Shown: in pieces, positions 3,058 through 35,890 of the stretch | How the letters are laid out: each line of letters begins with the position of its first letter | Position numbering within the stretch: the stretch's first letter is position 1 | Source of the DNA: a virus | Direction: 5' to 3' (one strand) | Length of the DNA stretch: 46,523 bases | IMG/VR virus record: IMGVR_UViG_3300020156_000041 | Coordinates: 1 to 46,523 of that record | The notes under the pieces: model-generated | Told to the model about the DNA's origin: nothing | What the model saw: only the letters and a program-made list of their open reading frames with translations | The model's database searches: none | Translations under genes and position numbers: made by a program

Positions 3058-3378
3058 ATGACCAAGACCTTCGCAAGCTACAACGCCCTGACCGACATGA
3101 TCATGGAAGATATCACCGCTCGCGTGGCCGGTTCGCGGGTCGGCATTTCCACACGTTCTGTCAGCCGGTACGTCGAGGCAAGTGATGAGCGCCGCGTTCG
3201 CATTTCCGACCACGACGCAACGGCTTCCTGCGGCGGCAACATCGTTTTCGAGATCGATATCCGCGACTTCGGTTCCGAGGAAATCTACGACGACTTCAAC
3301 GAGTTTGATGGCATCGAAATCTACCATGACTGGAAGATTGAAGAAGCCATCGACGCTGCTGTTAAGGCCCTTTCGTAA
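3058..3378 (+). CDS. Acidic hypothetical protein, first gene of a two-gene unit
   Basis: A 106-residue acidic protein with predicted alternating strands and helices (VFEIDIRDFG, FDGIEIYHDW) and an Ala-rich C-terminal helix. No family recognised. GAGG precedes the ATG by a few bases. Its TAA overlaps the ATG of the next gene by one base, so the two are translationally coupled. The unit has its own promoter with a palindrome and is transcribed opposite to the genes on both sides, which suggests expression independent of the early and late operons. Confidence 0.65.
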   Translation: MTKTFASYNALTDMIMEDITARVAGSRVGISTRSVSRYVEASDERRVRISDHDATASCGGNIVFEIDIRDFGSEEIYDDFNEFDGIEIYHDWKIEEAIDAAVKALS

Positions 3379-12235: not shown

Positions 12236-12334
12236 CTACGCCCCCACCGGAAAGTTAGTGGCCAGCCACAGCAGCGCAGCGAAAGAGCACAGGGCTATTG
12301 CAGCCCAGGCAGAGAGGGTGGCGAGGCGGGTCAT
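12236..12334 (-). CDS. 32-residue single-helix membrane peptide
   Basis: MTRLATLSAW followed by a hydrophobic helix ending NFPVGA. The ATG overlaps the TGA of the Cro-like gene (ATGA), and the stop abuts the next ATG. It is the second gene of the leftward early operon. Function unknown; a membrane-signalling or exclusion role would be a guess. Confidence 0.65.
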   Translation of the reverse strand: MTRLATLSAWAAIALCSFAALLWLATNFPVGA

Positions 12335-12585
12335 GCCACTTGCTCCTGCTTGGACGCGCCCCTACGCTGGCGCTCCAGCTTCATCGCGTGCAGGTCGGAG
12401 TGCGTCAGTTTGACGCCCTTTCGCTTGGCCGCTTCGATGAAACCGTCCCAGTGCGCAACGCCTATGGACCCGCGCCTGCGGATCATCTGCGCAGAAACGT
12501 ATGGGATGCTAAGCACTTCGCTCAGTTCTGTTGGGCTGTCCCAAAGCGCGAGCAGTTCTTCAAAGGTGGTTGGTTTGGTAAGCAT
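12331..12585 (-). CDS. Cro-like DNA-binding protein, leaderless
   Basis: An 84-residue protein. Residues about 13-50 read as a helix-turn-helix (SPTELSEVLSIPYVSAQMIR, then RRGSIGVAHW), and it is divergent from the repressor, the position of Cro. The start ATG at 12585 is exactly six bases after the TATTGT -10 box (12592-12597), so the transcript should begin at the ATG and be leaderless. It heads the leftward early operon and should compete with CI for the operators at 12593-12634. Confidence 0.75.
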   Translation of the reverse strand: MLTKPTTFEELLALWDSPTELSEVLSIPYVSAQMIRRRGSIGVAHWDGFIEAAKRKGVKLTHSDLHAMKLERQRRGASKQEQVA

Positions 12586-12591
12586 TCGCCA

Positions 12592-12619
12592 ACAATACAC
12601 GAAGCATCACGCTGCGCAA
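12592..12619 (-). promoter_or_regulatory. Early leftward promoter
   Basis: On the minus strand, TTGCGC (12614-12619) and TATTGT (12592-12597) with 16 bases between them. Both boxes overlap the two operators. The spacing and the -10 box are the same as in the rightward promoter at 13363-13390. Confidence 0.65.
12593..12610. promoter_or_regulatory. CI/Cro operator, left site 1
   Basis: CAATAC-ACGAA-GCATCAC, a partial palindrome. It covers the -10 box of the leftward promoter. Together with 12617-12634, 13348-13365 and 13372-13389 it defines the consensus CAATAC-N5-G(T/C)ATC(A/G)C. Confidence 0.7.
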
Positions 12620-12634
12620 TACCCGTTGTATCAC
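12617..12634. promoter_or_regulatory. CI/Cro operator, left site 2
   Basis: CAATAC-CCGTT-GTATCAC. It starts 24 bases after the first site, and covers the -35 box of the leftward promoter and the region upstream of the cI -10 box. A weaker third match (minus-strand CAATAA) lies at about 12632-12649. Confidence 0.7.
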
Positions 12635-12644
12635 AAATGCTGAT

Positions 12645-12650
12645 TATTGT
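12645..12650 (+). promoter_or_regulatory. cI promoter -10 box, leaderless start
   Basis: TATTGT lies six bases before the cI ATG, the same spacing as in the divergent gene. The -35 region is poor (around 12622-12631), as expected for a promoter that needs activation by repressor bound at 12617-12634. Confidence 0.5.
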
Positions 12651-12656
12651 TGCGCC

Positions 12657-13331
12657 ATGAATCGTACACCCGGCGAACGGTTAATTGAGCTACGTGAAAA
12701 GCGCTTCCGCACTGCGCGGGAGGCGGCGCGTGCTTATGGGTGGAACGAGGTCACATATAGAAGCCATGAAAACGGCACCCGCAACATACCATACGAGGTA
12801 GCCAAGCGGTACGCCTCGGCCTTCGGCTCTACCCCACAATATATTCTAGGCGAAGGCAACGGGAACGGGGGCGGAAACGGCGCCCTCACACCAATAGTTA
12901 ACCATATCGCGACTGTTCGCGTCCTCGGTACTGTCGCAGCGGGAACCTTCCGTTACGATGAGTTTGGGGAGTCGGATACTATGGAAGTGCCAGTAATACC
13001 GCACAAAGGCATTCCTGCTTCGGCGCAGTATGCTGTGCTTGTAGACGGACCAAGCGTTAACCTGCGCATACCTGACGGCATGTACGCTATATGCGCCCTG
13101 TTCGATCACTACCCAGGCGGCCCGCAGCACGGCAACCTGGTGCATGTGGTGCGGGAAACGGCTGGGCTATACGAGCACACCATCAAAGAGCTGCGCTTCA
13201 CCAGCGACGGGCGCGCCCTTTTCCCCACCTCTGACGATCCCCGCTTTCAGGAAGTGGTCAAACTGAGCAACGGGGCCGACTCGCTTGTACGCATTCACGG
13301 CGTCGTTATCGGGCAATACAAGCCCATGTGA
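12657..13331 (+). CDS. CI-like repressor with S24/LexA autoprotease domain
   Basis: A 224-residue repressor. Residues about 5-60 form an XRE-type helix-turn-helix (AREAARAYGWNEVTYRSHEN). A Gly/Asn-rich linker (65-77) leads to an S24 peptidase domain: Ala95-Gly96 is the expected cleavage site, Ser133 in DGPSVN the likely nucleophile, and Lys177 in TIKEL the general base. Domain order and length match LexA and lambda CI, so RecA-stimulated self-cleavage and SOS induction are expected. The usual GDSM around the Ser is GPSV here. No ribosome site precedes the ATG, so leaderless translation is likely. Confidence 0.9.
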   Translation: MNRTPGERLIELREKRFRTAREAARAYGWNEVTYRSHENGTRNIPYEVAKRYASAFGSTPQYILGEGNGNGGGNGALTPIVNHIATVRVLGTVAAGTFRYDEFGESDTMEVPVIPHKGIPASAQYAVLVDGPSVNLRIPDGMYAICALFDHYPGGPQHGNLVHVVRETAGLYEHTIKELRFTSDGRALFPTSDDPRFQEVVKLSNGADSLVRIHGVVIGQYKPM

Positions 13332-13339
13332 TTTTTTTT
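13311..13339 (+). terminator. Weak terminator after cI
   Basis: GGGC and GCCC around a short loop at 13311-13324, then eight T from 13332. The stem is only 4 bp and overlaps the end of the gene. It would separate cI from the operon at 13431. Confidence 0.35.
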
Positions 13340-13347
13340 GTCACATC

Positions 13348-13365
13348 GCGATACAAACGGTATTG
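13348..13365. promoter_or_regulatory. CI/Cro operator, right site 1
   Basis: GCGATAC-AAACG-GTATTG, the reverse complement of the consensus CAATAC-N5-GTATCGC. It overlaps the start of the rightward -35 box. Confidence 0.7.
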
Positions 13366-13390
13366 CTATCCGTGATGCATCGTGTATTGT
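13363..13390 (+). promoter_or_regulatory. Early rightward promoter
   Basis: TTGCTA (13363-13368) and TATTGT (13385-13390) separated by 16 bases, the same geometry as the leftward promoter. Transcription from here should cover the genes from 13431 onward to the integrase. A 40-base leader with GGAGACGAGAG precedes the first ATG. Confidence 0.65.
13372..13389. promoter_or_regulatory. CI/Cro operator, right site 2
   Basis: GTGATGC-ATCGT-GTATTG. It starts 24 bases after the previous site, the same spacing as the left pair, and is nearly identical to left site 1 in reverse orientation. It covers the -10 box. Confidence 0.7.
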
Positions 13391-13430
13391 ACCTCCATCA
13401 ACAGCGACACCCGCTTGATGGAGACGAGAG

Positions 13431-13685
13431 ATGGCGAAGCTTCACGAGATCAAAGCGCAGATTACAGAAATCACTGGTTTGCCTGTGATGGATGAAGATG
13501 CTGGCATTTCCGTTCTTGTTCTGGGTGATCGCCCAGAAATGGTTCCTGTTATCGCTGCCCGCCTCGCCGCTGCCGGTATCGCCTTCGAGAAGGCAAAGAA
13601 CCGCACGTTCAAAGGCGCCAAGTTCACAATCGCCCTTCGCAACGTCGGAACTGCATTTGCCACTAACTGGGAGTTTGCCCAGTGA
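13431..13685 (+). CDS. Small hypothetical protein, first gene of rightward operon
   Basis: An 84-residue protein with alternating helices and strands (VLVLGDRPEMVPVIAARLAA, then FKGAKFTIALRNVG). GGAGACGAGAG precedes the ATG. No family recognised. As first gene behind a CI-controlled promoter it should be among the earliest phage products. Confidence 0.7.
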   Translation: MAKLHEIKAQITEITGLPVMDEDAGISVLVLGDRPEMVPVIAARLAAAGIAFEKAKNRTFKGAKFTIALRNVGTAFATNWEFAQ

Positions 13686-15025: not shown

Positions 15026-15768
15026 CCTTGGCACTTTCCGATAGCGGCAATGATCGCATCGCCATGGGCGCAAACATGCCGCCCGAGGAAAAGACGCCGT
15101 TCGACCTGATCGTTGAGCAGATTGACGATCTATACGGCGAGGCCCGCAACTTCGCTTCCGATGGCTTCAAGATCGCCAGCCAGGAGCAGGCCGACGAAAT
15201 CGACAAGCTCGATAAGGCCCTGCTCAAGGCGCAGCAGGACGCCGACGAGTTGCGCGAGGCCGAGAAGAAACCGCACGATGACGCTGCCAAGGCCGTGCAG
15301 GCGAAGTTCAACCCCTATGTCCAGAAAGACAAAGGCAAAACCTATATCGCCCGTGCCAGCCTCAAGGCCCTCCTTACCGCATGGCGCGTCGAACAGCATC
15401 GCATTGCCGATGAAAAGGCCAAGGCTGCCCGCGAAGCTGCCGAGGCAGAACGCAAGGCGGCTGAGGAAGCCCTTCGCGCCTCGTGTGGCGACCTTGTTGC
15501 CCGCGAGCAGGCCGAGCAGATGCTCGACAGCGCTAAGCAGGCGGAGAAAGTCGCCAGCAAGGCCACAAAGGCAGCAACCACGGGCACCGGCCTGAAACCC
15601 AAATGGGTGGCGACGATGACAGATCAGCGCGCCGCTGTCGCCGCTATGTGGAAGCAGAACCCGCAGGCTTTTCTGGATCTGGCGCAGACCCTTGCGGAGC
15701 AGGCAGTTCGTGCCGGCGCCCGAAAGATCGACGGTTTCGAAATCAAGGAAGAAAAGGTCGCTATCTGA
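15022..15768 (+). CDS. Coiled-coil protein upstream of RecT
   Basis: A 248-residue protein. The start at 15022 has GGGGA just upstream. Residues about 30-80 and 125-200 are long charged helices ([37 protein letters not shown]), with a Gly/Thr linker and a small C-terminal domain ending [11 protein letters not shown]. Its TGA overlaps the RecT ATG. Proteins of this type often accompany RecT genes in phages and have no proven role; a partner or nuclease-modulating role is inferred from position. Confidence 0.7.
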
Positions 15769-16703
15769 TGAACGCCATTGCCACCATTGACGCCAAGGCA
15801 AACGCAACTCCGGCCACCGTGTTCAGCGGCGACCAGGTGGATCTGATCAAGCGCACGATCGCCAAAGGCTCGACCGACGACGAACTGCAGTTGTTCCTGC
15901 ACCAGTGCAAGCGCACCGGGCTCGATCCATTTGCCCGCCAGATTTATGCCGTGAAACGCTGGGACGGCCAGCAGAAGCGCGAAGTCATGGCGGTGCAGAC
16001 CAGCATCGACGGCTTCCGCCTGATCGCGGAGCGCAGCGGAAAGTATGCCGGTCAGGTCGGGCCATATTGGTGTGGCGAAGATGGGCGGTGGACCGATGTT
16101 TGGCTTTCCAAAACGCCGCCAGTCGCCGCCAAGGTCGGCGTTCTGCGTGCAGATTTCTCCGAGCCATGTTTTGGCGTCGCACGCTTCGATGGATATGCAC
16201 AGCGCAAGAAGGATGGCTCTCTGACCCATATGTGGGCCGGCATGGGCGACGTCATGATTGCCAAATGCGCCGAGGCATTGGCGCTGCGCAAGGCGTTCCC
16301 GCAGGAGCTTTCCGGCCTCTATACCGGCGATGAGATGGCCCAGGCCAGCAATGGCCAAGATGAGCCGGCGCCCGCTTCCGAACAGCCGAAGGAAATCGAG
16401 CAGAAATCCAAGGCCGACAGTAGGGACGTTTACGAGCGCCTTTCCAAGGCCAATCGGGAGCTTTCCAGCCTCGACGACTTTGACCGCTTCTGGCGCGCCG
16501 GCAATGTCAATGCGGCTTTTCTTTCCATGCCGCGCGACTGGCAGGCAGAGCTTGCTAACGAGCGCGAGGACAAGGCGGCAGAACTAGCCGAGCGCGAAGC
16601 AATGCAGGCAGCCGGCAGCAGTTCTGGTGACGACGATTTCCCCGGCTTTGACAATTCGCAGGCCGGATATGTGCCGCCGAATTTCGACAGCCACGCCGCT
16701 TAG
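15768..16703 (+). CDS. recT: RecT/Bet single-strand annealing protein
   Basis: A 311-residue protein. The core (about residues 25-190) has the Bet/RecT family pattern: [44 protein letters not shown] and [20 protein letters not shown]. It anneals complementary single strands during phage recombination. The C-terminal third is acidic, low-complexity and variable, ending in FPGFDNS and Pro/Asp residues. No lambda exonuclease, RecE or YqaJ-type partner is recognisable nearby, and no SSB. Confidence 0.9.
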
Positions 16704-20180: not shown

Positions 20181-20497
20181 TGCAGGACAGACCCATGACA
20201 CCAGATCAGGCAGCTGCGCACTGGGGCTGCTCGGCGAACCACGTTCGCAACCTAATTCACAAGGGAGAACTGAGGGCTTACCGGCTGGGCGAGCGCCTGT
20301 TTAGAATTCCGCCAGGCGCGATCGAGGAATACGAACAATGTCAGATGCAGCAACAGAGCTCCGAATTGGCCGGCTCAATGGGCAGTTTGTCGTCACCTGG
20401 TGGGAAGAAGGAAAGCGACGGCGTTATCGTCTTGAAGCACAGTCAAGAGCGGCAGCCGAGACGGAAGCCCTCGCCCTCTACCAGCGCGAACGGCTGA
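20180..20497 (+). CDS. xis: Excisionase-like helix-turn-helix protein
   Basis: A 105-residue reading. Residues about 6-55 (MTPDQAAAHWGCSANHVRNL, then HKGELRAYRLGERLFRIPP) form the MerR/HTH_17-type winged helix used by excisionases. The last 50 residues overlap the integrase gene by 160 bases and look low-complexity, so they may add little. Xis proteins bind near att sites to favour excision. The position directly before int supports the call. Confidence 0.75.
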   Translation: MQDRPMTPDQAAAHWGCSANHVRNLIHKGELRAYRLGERLFRIPPGAIEEYEQCQMQQQSSELAGSMGSLSSPGGKKESDGVIVLKHSQERQPRRKPSPSTSANG

Positions 20498-21354
20498 GGG
20501 ACGCCGGCACCACGATAGGCACGTTGTGGGAAATGTATCGACAGGAGAAGCAAGGCAGACGGGTAGCCGTCGCCATGCGCTTTGAATGGAAGGCTATGGA
20601 GCCCCATTTCGGAAGCGTGAAGCCCGAAGACCTCTCAATCGATATGTGCCGACGCTATACAGCGGCGCGCCGGAAAGCGAAGAAGCACGACGGCACGATC
20701 TGGACCGAGCTCGGCCACCTGCGCACGGTGTTGACCTGGGCGCATTCGCGGCGCCTGATTGCATTCGCTCCCGCCGTCGAGCGGCCCGCCAAGCCGGCGC
20801 CGAAAGATCGCTGGCTGACGACGGACGAGATTCACAAGCTGCTCGCTGCGCCGAAGGCCCACCATGTTCAACTGGCGATCCTGTTGATGCTGGCGACCGC
20901 CGGCCGCGTGAGCGCAATCCTTGAACTGACATGGGATCGTGTCGACTTCGACCGAGGAACCATCAACCTAAGGACCAGCGAGACCGGCCCCCGTAAGGGC
21001 CGCGCCATAGTGCCGATGAATGATGGCCTGCGCGCGGCGCTCTCCCACGCCGAGAATGCGGCCATGACCGACTATGTGATCGAGTGGGCCGGGGCCAAGG
21101 TGGCGCGCCTTCGCACCGGCTTTGCCGCGGCAGTGCGATCAGCAAAGCTCAAGGGCGTATCACCGCACGTCCTGCGCCACACGGCGGCCGTTCATCTTGT
21201 CGCCGCCGGCGTGCCAATGCAGAAAGTGAGCCAGTACCTGGGCCACTCGAGCATCGCCGTGACCGAGCGCGTCTATGGCCGGTATGCTCCAGATCATCTC
21301 AAGGAGGAGGCGGCAATTCTGGACTTCACGAAGCCGGTGCGCGATGCGAGTTAG
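20338..21354 (+). CDS. int: Tyrosine-type phage integrase
   Basis: A 338-residue tyrosine recombinase. The core-binding domain covers about residues 57-145. The catalytic domain shows Arg190 (ATAGRVSA), a Lys near 220, His277-x-x-Arg280 (HVLRHT), His303 (LGHSSI) and the nucleophile Tyr313 (ERVYGRY). It integrates phage DNA at a tRNA gene. The attP core lies 55 bases downstream, and xis overlaps its start. It ends the rightward early operon, so it shares the CI-controlled promoter unless it has its own. Confidence 0.92.
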   Translation: MSDAATELRIGRLNGQFVVTWWEEGKRRRYRLEAQSRAAAETEALALYQRERLRDAGTTIGTLWEMYRQEKQGRRVAVAMRFEWKAMEPHFGSVKPEDLSIDMCRRYTAARRKAKKHDGTIWTELGHLRTVLTWAHSRRLIAFAPAVERPAKPAPKDRWLTTDEIHKLLAAPKAHHVQLAILLMLATAGRVSAILELTWDRVDFDRGTINLRTSETGPRKGRAIVPMNDGLRAALSHAENAAMTDYVIEWAGAKVARLRTGFAAAVRSAKLKGVSPHVLRHTAAVHLVAAGVPMQKVSQYLGHSSIAVTERVYGRYAPDHLKEEAAILDFTKPVRDAS

Positions 21355-33664: not shown

Positions 33665-35890
33665 TTACCAGAGGTTCTTTCCACGATTTGCGACAATCTG
33701 GCGGACGCGTGGTTCAAACTCCGCCCGCTCGCGTGCAAGGATCTGGCCCAACTTCTCGACGGCCGCAGTATCGGCACCACGTGCATCGATCACCGGCGCA
33801 AAGGTGAATTGCGGCGCGCCACCGGCCGTCGAGCTTGGCAATGACGGCAATCGCAAGTCCACCGGCACCTTGCCGCCCGCCGGCAGCGGAATGACGGCCT
33901 CTTGCCCATGCACCACGCCGCGCGGCTCTCCGCGCCGTCCGCCAGTATTGGCCGTGCCCGTGGCAAAACCAAACAGCTTGCCGATTACCCCAAAGGGGTT
34001 CGATCCACTGCCAGTACCAAAGAGGCCGGCCAGCCCCAGGTCGAGCAACTTGCTGCCGATGGCCTGAAAGGCGTTTCCGAGCGCGTCCGCCGCGCTTTTT
34101 GCATCGCCCAGATCGTCGATGAACCCCCGCGCGATATCCCGGCCGCTGGAGAACCAATCTTCCATCGTGTCGCGGGCGCTTTGCTGGGCCTCTGCCAGCC
34201 TGGCCGCCTCTACAGTGGCCGTTGCATAGCCTTCGGCCAGTTCGTTGATTGCGTTCACGCGGTCGGGCGTGAGGTCGAGCCCCGCCCTTGTGGCCTCGTT
34301 CTCAAGATCCTGCTGCATACGCAGCTTTTCGATGGCATAGCCGTAATCGTCGATTAGCGGGCTCAGGGTGGAGATTAGCGACGTTTCTTCTTGCAGGTTC
34401 GCAAGGCGCTGCCGCTCGGCATCAAGCCGATCATTAAAGCGATCACCTGCGCTTTTGCCCCGACCGCCGCCCGCCCCGCCGCCGCCAGTTGGCGCGTCAT
34501 AGTCGGCGATACTGACGGTCTTGACCGTCGCAGGCGCCTTAGGGGCTGGAGCGCTCTCCTGGCCGGCGTAAGACATAGCATTGCCAGAAACGTCGACTCG
34601 GGTCGCTGCAGCACTTGCACGGCGCAGCTCGTAGATGCGTGCGACAACTCCGCTGATTTTGTTCAACAAGGGCGCAAAGTCGGGGTCCGCCTCACCAAGG
34701 GCCTCGAGTGCGATCGCGGTCGATTCCGCTGTGCCACGGCCTTTAAGAATTTGTCCGAACAGGTCTTGGGCAGCATCCCCGATTTCGCCGAACTTCCCCT
34801 TAGTATTGAGCGCGAATGTCGCCAGCGCCTGCTCGTTTTGCGCCAGTTCAAGTGTCGCATCCGAGATGGAAGATCCGTAGCGGTCAAGCCCTTGCTGCAC
34901 CTGATCTACGACGGCCTCAATCGCGTTCCCGAGATCTTCGAATTCCTGGATCGTTTTGCCAAGGCTGTCGAAATTCGCATCTTCCATGTGGTTATTGAGG
35001 TCAGTCAACCACCGCACCAATTGGCTGTCAGAAAGCCTCTCAACTGCAGTGGCGAGAGTGTCGATGTCGCGGGCGAAACTTGCACTGAACTTCGTAGCGT
35101 CGTCAAACTTGCCAGCTGTGTCGACGAGCACGTTCTGCAGGCGAACGAATGACTGAGAGACCGTGAGTTCGGACCCGGCAACCTTCTCTTCCAGGATCAC
35201 CGATCCAGCCTCGAACGCGCGGAAGAATGCCTCAGACGAGACTTTTCCCTCGACCACAAGACCGCGCAGTTTGGCGACCGATCCACCAGCCTCATCTAGA
35301 CCGGCGGCCACCGCCTGGGCAATCGGGAGAGCGCCTTCGAGGATGGAGTTGAATTCTTCCGCTCGCACCGTGCCCGCACCAAGGGCCTGCGAAAGCTGCA
35401 GCAATGAGCCCGATGCCGTTTGTGCATCAGTTCCTGCCACTCGAAGGGCCAGGGCGACATTGTCCGTGAAACCCAAAAGCTCCTCAGTCGAAACCCCAAG
35501 TTCCTTCTGCACTATGGCGGCCCGTCCATAGAGCGTAACAAGGCTTTCAAGGGGTGCTGCATTGCGTTGCGCAGACTGGAACAGACTGTTGTAGACAGCT
35601 TCAAGATCTTCACCGGCAAGACCCGCAACCTTCAGCGCATTTTCGATCCGTGTCGACGTATCGATCAGTTGTTGTGCGCCGCGCAGAGCAGCAGCGGTCG
35701 CGAAGGCGCCGGCAATACCCCGGCCAATGCCAGCCACACCAGCCGATACATGCTTACTAAGTGCGTCAAACCGGCTCTCAATCTGCCGTGCGGTTTTATT
35801 GGTGATCCCGTTGGCTCGATTCATTGCGTTTTGATATTGCTTGATGTCGGCGCTAAGCTGGACAACAAGTCTTTCTAGATCAGTGGCCAT
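33665..35890 (-). CDS. Tape measure protein
   Basis: A 741-residue protein. The N terminus (MATDLERLVVQLSADIKQYQ, NAMNRANGITNKT) and a TP901/lambda-type tape-measure block (QLIDTSTRIENALKVAGLAG, GSLLQLSQALGAGTVRAEEF) are recognisable, with hydrophobic helices and Gly-rich end. At about 1.5 angstroms per residue it predicts a tail of roughly 110 nm. It sets tail length and is ejected with the DNA. Transcribed from the tail chaperone side. Confidence 0.9.
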   Translation of the reverse strand: MATDLERLVVQLSADIKQYQNAMNRANGITNKTARQIESRFDALSKHVSAGVAGIGRGIAGAFATAAALRGAQQLIDTSTRIENALKVAGLAGEDLEAVYNSLFQSAQRNAAPLESLVTLYGRAAIVQKELGVSTEELLGFTDNVALALRVAGTDAQTASGSLLQLSQALGAGTVRAEEFNSILEGALPIAQAVAAGLDEAGGSVAKLRGLVVEGKVSSEAFFRAFEAGSVILEEKVAGSELTVSQSFVRLQNVLVDTAGKFDDATKFSASFARDIDTLATAVERLSDSQLVRWLTDLNNHMEDANFDSLGKTIQEFEDLGNAIEAVVDQVQQGLDRYGSSISDATLELAQNEQALATFALNTKGKFGEIGDAAQDLFGQILKGRGTAESTAIALEALGEADPDFAPLLNKISGVVARIYELRRASAAATRVDVSGNAMSYAGQESAPAPKAPATVKTVSIADYDAPTGGGGAGGGRGKSAGDRFNDRLDAERQRLANLQEETSLISTLSPLIDDYGYAIEKLRMQQDLENEATRAGLDLTPDRVNAINELAEGYATATVEAARLAEAQQSARDTMEDWFSSGRDIARGFIDDLGDAKSAADALGNAFQAIGSKLLDLGLAGLFGTGSGSNPFGVIGKLFGFATGTANTGGRRGEPRGVVHGQEAVIPLPAGGKVPVDLRLPSLPSSTAGGAPQFTFAPVIDARGADTAAVEKLGQILARERAEFEPRVRQIVANRGKNLW

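Follow-up and report, generated by a model that had tools for sequence, protein, structure and literature searches.

In phage lambda, cI lies between the operator clusters OL and OR, about 2.3 kb apart, each of which covers an early promoter and holds three 17-bp operators spaced by about 24 bp. The cro gene is divergent from cI, the cI mRNA is leaderless, and replication genes lie on the cro side while recombination and integration genes occupy the other. Bound at OR2, which lies near position -42 relative to the cI start, lambda CI activates its own gene. In HK022 and phiKO2/N15, OL and OR also lie on either side of the repressor gene, 630-700 bp apart, and repressor looping between them in vivo was demonstrated for HK022 (about 700 bp) and phiKO2 (about 630 bp); moreover, a lambda CI octamer can join two two-operator sites (PMC8053113). 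Experiments on PY54 revealed that both cI and cro are expressed from leaderless mRNA (PMC4488713). CP-933P encodes the repressor PaaR2 divergently from a small YdaS Cro analogue, its repressor mRNA is leaderless, and the -35 and -10 boxes of PL are identical to those of PR (PMC8630535). In the alphaproteobacterial Rhizobium phage 16-3, the C repressor governs both PL and PR (PMC3694467). Here we describe a locus in a viral record of 46,523 bases, analysed over its whole length (hereafter the window), that we take with considerable confidence to be a temperate-phage immunity region following the lambda plan in mirror image, with CI acting on both of its operator pairs.

Predicted operator pairs and early promoters in the window

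The features of the region are the following (positions count from the first base of the window).
12331..12585, minus strand: cro-like gene encoding 84 aa, opening the left early operon on the replication side (ORF; 27 sequences aligned)
12592..12597, minus strand: leftward promoter, predicted -10 box TATTGT, within the O1 arm (TATYGT conserved at the arm)
12593..12609, no strand: predicted operator O1 (OR1-like), palindrome with a degenerate outer arm (pattern and matrix)
12614..12619, minus strand: leftward promoter, predicted -35 box TTGCGC, beginning in the O2 arm (TTG in 35/35 loci)
12617..12633, no strand: predicted operator O2 (OR2-like), centred 32 bp ahead of the cI ATG (pattern and matrix)
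12645..12650, plus strand: putative cI promoter -10 box TATTGT, 6 nt before the cI ATG (family pattern)
12657..13331, plus strand: cI repressor gene, 224 aa (phrog_4, E=1.4e-18; HTH_3 and Peptidase_S24)
13349..13365, no strand: predicted operator R1 (OL-like), right pair, distal (pattern and matrix)
13363..13368, plus strand: rightward promoter, predicted -35 box TTGCTA (TTG at the arm in 32/33 loci)
13373..13389, no strand: predicted operator R2 (OL-like), right pair, proximal (pattern and matrix)
13385..13390, plus strand: predicted -10 box TATTGT of the rightward promoter (sequence; conserved)
13431..13685, plus strand: gene of 84 aa that opens the right early operon (ORF)
15768-16703: RecT, downstream of the gene at 13431..13685
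20338-21354: integrase, downstream of the same gene

A first-pass annotation had placed CAATACN5GYATCRC sites at 12593 and 12617 and, inverted, at 13348 and 13372, with an equal 24-bp offset in both pairs and a promoter with a 16-bp spacer and a TATTGT box under each, and had proposed a scan of the whole genome for the consensus. The exact-match scan of all 46,523 bases returned precisely these four positions, the left two on the plus and the right two on the minus strand, and no further exact match elsewhere in the record, i.e. no wide chance occurrence. The site coordinates confirmed the 24-bp offset on both sides, and spacer and boxes were borne out by the sequence, the boxes being conserved across related loci as well. 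The pair centres are 756 bp apart, and the 41-bp arms at 12592-12632 and 13350-13390 form an inverted repeat (83%). The rarity of the consensus is by itself weak evidence because it was defined post hoc, with these same four sites as its source, and with three mismatches allowed the window contains 35 matches vs 30, which is chance level. Independent loci remove the post hoc objection by providing a matrix built without the window, under which the four sites are among the five best 17-mers (scores 22.3, 19.9, 13.1, and 13.1). The predicted operator unit is the 17-bp palindrome CRATAC-N5-GTATYG, which refines the original consensus. The outer arms of O1 and R2 are degenerate in the window (GCATCA and TGATGC), so the affinity of these two sites is uncertain. 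The remaining high-scoring 17-mer, a single site with one mismatch at 34507-34523 (score 14.3), lies inside a tape-measure gene and was rejected as an operator, since 2 of 20 random sequences score higher. The best candidate for a third operator in the window reached only -5 in the matrix scan, which is not significant.

Both predicted promoters point away from cI and combine TTG at -35, a 16-bp spacer, and TATTGT at -10. The leftward one would serve an operon of methyltransferases and a primosomal protein. A sigma-70 scanner with the E. coli consensus as its standard found no promoter in the window, as the predicted boxes are non-consensus by that standard, and we inferred the promoters from comparative data instead. 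Two further elements were seen near the rightward promoter. The leader of the right operon (13393-13423) holds a 9-bp inverted repeat, CTCCATCAA...TTGATGGAG, the 3' arm of which takes in the Shine-Dalgarno GGAG of the operon's first gene; inverted repeats of at least 7 bp occur at this place in 11 of 32 loci vs 2.8% of shuffles and could represent an RNA hairpin or a site for another protein. Right after the cI stop there is a run of 7-8 T (13333-13340 in the window, about 3144-3150 in the contig L009, a near relative), located some 50-60 bp ahead of the start site predicted for the right operon, which could be a UP-like element or part of cI termination.

Conservation across phage loci

The exact pair pattern is present in one other IMG/VR contig, L009, where the pairs flank a cI homologue (60% identical to the window CI) and a divergent cro-like gene (43%). 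CRATAC-N5-GTATYG repeated at 24 bp occurs in 12 viral and five bacterial contigs, the latter from Zavarzinia aquatilis, Sphingobium lactosutens, a Rhodospirillales MAG, a Sphingomonadales MAG, and a MAG titled only Proteobacteria. This tandem palindrome has 20 fixed and four two-fold positions, and by our own estimate a chance match in 10^11 bases is improbable (<0.01). A looser pattern yielded 61 viral stretches. A protein search of viral contigs with the window CI alone found nothing, and it was the DNA pattern that proved the productive route to these loci. Only one of 399 genomes from the family of the Sphingobium host was positive, so there is no rich set of hosts.

A CI-type HTH ORF accompanies the pattern in 45 of 67 loci (window included), and 42 of these 45 also have a cro-like ORF. 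The other 22 gave no CI match in the sequence examined; some of them carry a cro-like gene or share a contig with another locus having one. About 16 tandem-palindrome loci have neither gene detected (L030, L031, L037-L039, L041, L043, L046, L049, L055, L062, L064, L068, L070-L072), and some of these may represent other regulators or chance. Among 37 distinct loci (window included), the left pair is present in 35, the right pair in 33, and both flank a cI homologue in 31. Operator offsets range from 24 to 26 bp, and in most loci the O2 centre precedes the cI ATG by 29-35 bp. The operator consensus is a perfect palindrome, CGATAC-N5-GTATCG, its exact conservation being partly due to selection as the loci were chosen for these sites. 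Pairwise identity of the repressors sharing this layout goes down to 17%. In L058 and L060, the cI ORFs beside the pairs encode only 112 and 107 aa, with an HTH and no S24 domain.

The promoter arms carry a constraint of their own. The predicted -35 arm reads TTG in 67 of 68 cases (left 35/35, right 32/33, distinct loci), whereas outer arms have the C type at the same Y position in about 80-97%, and the search pattern permitted both bases there. The TTG is followed by AC, giving TTGAC, in 46 of 68 (left 19/35, right 27/33), and the arm of the proximal operator reads TAT(C/T)GT, i.e. a -10 box. This constraint gives the promoter positions and directions evolutionary support beyond inspection by eye. 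Since each operator carries one promoter element, a spacer of 16-18 bp would fix the offset at 24-25 bp; the equal 24-bp offset thus follows from promoter spacing and does not in itself indicate cooperativity.

Leaderless transcripts appear to be another common trait. The window cro-like ATG lies 6 nt past the -10 hexamer, and cro-like ORFs start 6-8 nt after it in 32 of 35 loci, at the point where a transcript would be expected to begin. Motifs resembling a Shine-Dalgarno sequence precede 1 of 33 cro-like and 2 of 35 cI starts, compared with 14% at random positions. Given this short distance and the missing Shine-Dalgarno sequence, the cro-like mRNA is probably leaderless, and the cI mRNA is a putative second case. 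A degenerate third site was found on the left in 21 of 35 relatives, mostly 15, 24, or 35 bp from O2, and the matrix scan detected none on the right. These distances correspond to steps of about one helical turn, and third sites between O2 and cI occur in L011, L013, L015, L017, L018, L019, L026, L045, L053, L065, and others.

The repressor and the proposed switch

The window CI combines an HTH (about residues 5-64, recognition helix about 31-38) with an S24 domain containing Ala95-Gly96, Ser133, and Lys177; Ser133, Lys177, and Gly96 are kept in 93-97% of 30 relatives. The best match of its AF2 model is the cleavable C-terminal fragment of lambda repressor (2hnf). In a set selected by CI protein sequence, the left operator pair was present in 23 of 25 loci with the recognition-helix motif YRxHENxTR vs 3 of 16 without it (Fisher p=2.7e-6, a value that overstates independence as the members are related), and the set is not wholly unbiased because the selecting peptide pattern contained part of the motif. 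Two of the three non-motif repressors with operators are near-motif (YRSHENGIR and YRSHENGVR), and in the AF2 model the motif sits in and just after the third helix. This co-variation of helix and operator is the best available evidence that CI would be the binder. By eye, related cI genes with other recognition helices have different palindromes and a leftward TTGAC box upstream of cI, seemingly at the same place (L080, L094, L096, L100, L101, L104, L112, L118).

It might be argued that the sites primarily serve the Cro-like protein while CI uses other DNA, given that the cro-like gene is conserved beside the pairs and that Cro proteins often share CI operators. We consider this improbable, as operator presence tracks the recognition helix of CI and no other repeated palindrome of note was found in the region. 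Still less probable, to the point that we give it hardly any weight, is that the repeats are nothing more than conserved promoters, with a palindromic form that arose by chance and no repressor function. One arm of every site is indeed a promoter element, but CGATAC is also conserved in the outer arms, where it plays no part in a promoter, resulting in near-perfect palindromes, and the degenerate third sites at set distances from O2 also speak against it. The Cro-like protein itself is distinct. Its AF2 model has five helices (pLDDT 89), the fold search with this model gave only weak HTH matches (E around 1), and homology to lambda Cro was not found by it. The carph-isopro domain (NF046037) matches the window protein with 21.2 bits (E=2.5e-4; cut-off 38) and relatives with 34.3 and 40.4 bits, and YdaS_toxin weakly matches one relative.

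CI binding at both pairs thus remains our preferred reading. That one repressor controls both early operons, with cI between the pairs, had already been suggested in the first-pass annotation, and as a prediction of binding it is strongly supported by the 31 conserved loci, the promoter-specific T in the -35 arms, and the co-variation of CI helix and operator. In the proposed switch, whose binding, cleavage, Cro action, autoregulation, and looping are predicted from sequence, CI dimers would bind 17-bp palindromes with CGATAC-N5-GTATCG as the ideal. The left pair (O1 and O2), between the divergent cI and cro-like genes, would cover the leftward promoter of the cro-like, methyltransferase, and replication genes, and the right pair (R1 and R2) the rightward promoter of the recT and integrase genes. 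As the inner arms of each pair would form the -35 box (distal operator) and the -10 box (proximal operator), a bound pair of dimers would hide the whole promoter. In a lysogen, CI would silence both early operons. Upon DNA damage it would probably cleave itself (Ala-Gly site, Ser/Lys dyad), both operons would start together, and the Cro-like protein, translated from a probably leaderless mRNA, would then probably repress cI. CI probably represses rather than activates its own gene, given that O2, centred at -32 relative to the predicted cI start, covers a poorly matching cI -35 region. This distance is about -31 in most relatives and -42, one helical turn further, in five, and lambda-like activation of cI seems plausible in the -42 class and less so in the window.

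CI bound at both pairs might additionally loop the approx. 756 bp between them in an octamer-type complex, leading to stronger repression and cI tuning. The looping repressors of HK022 and phiKO2, the ability of the lambda octamer to join two two-operator sites, and the retention of both pairs in 31 loci are in favour. Against this, distances between the pairs vary from 705 to 2,660 bp (404 bp in L058 with its truncated cI), they are not helically phased at any period of 10-11.5 bp (all p>0.08), and the silencing of two operons would call for two pairs in any case. Helical phasing is not required for loops of this length. Altogether, we regard looping as a serious possibility that falls slightly short of being favoured.

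Comparison with described immunity regions

The window very probably contains a lambda-style on/off switch of a little-studied phage group. No description of the operator type of this group or of the carph-isopro domain was found in the literature searched. For phages whose operators we did not find described, the locus supplies all parts of a lambda-type switch in testable form, with a repressor-operator code and promoter positions that are both predicted and with a Cro whose mRNA is probably leaderless. Nature also provides in it a way to test for mutual constraint between operator and promoter sequences, and alphaproteobacterial genetics would gain a pair of promoters that is compact and can be tightly repressed. 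A further reading, which we think doubtful, is that the diverged repressors (<30% identity) of a large group of alphaproteobacterial phages keep one operator specificity and all their Cro mRNAs are leaderless. Here, the half-site doubling as -35 or -10 hexamer would lock the CI helix to the promoter. Such phages would be cross-immune, contrary to the rapid diversification of immunity specificity that is the rule among lambdoid phages.

With HK022 and phiKO2/N15, the window shares operator regions that flank the repressor gene at a similar distance, yet these phages are enterobacterial and have other operators and repressors. PY54 resembles it in the leaderless cI and cro mRNAs (predicted in the window), but its Cro binds a single OR3 site and no matched operator pairs on promoter boxes are described. 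CP-933P shares the divergent repressor and small Cro-type gene, the matching PL and PR boxes, and the leaderless repressor mRNA (putative in the window); however, PaaR2 is much smaller (approx. 15 kDa tagged) and part of a toxin-antitoxin operon, there are three operators at PL, and the operators differ. Rhizobium phage 16-3 is alike in having PL and PR under one repressor, as predicted for the window. Compared with lambda, the window has two instead of three operators per region and a different operator sequence, the regions are 756 bp rather than about 2.3 kb apart, O2 is centred at -32 instead of about -42, and the Cro-like protein, whose mRNA is probably leaderless, is not recognisable as lambda Cro. 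On the other hand, cI would likewise be flanked by operator clusters overlapping two opposite early promoters, with 17-bp operators about 24 bp apart and a predicted leaderless cI mRNA. A small divergent HTH gene of Cro type lies beside cI, the repressor joins an N-terminal HTH to a C-terminal S24 self-cleavage domain, and replication genes are found on the cro-like side with recombination and integration genes on the other, just as in lambda.
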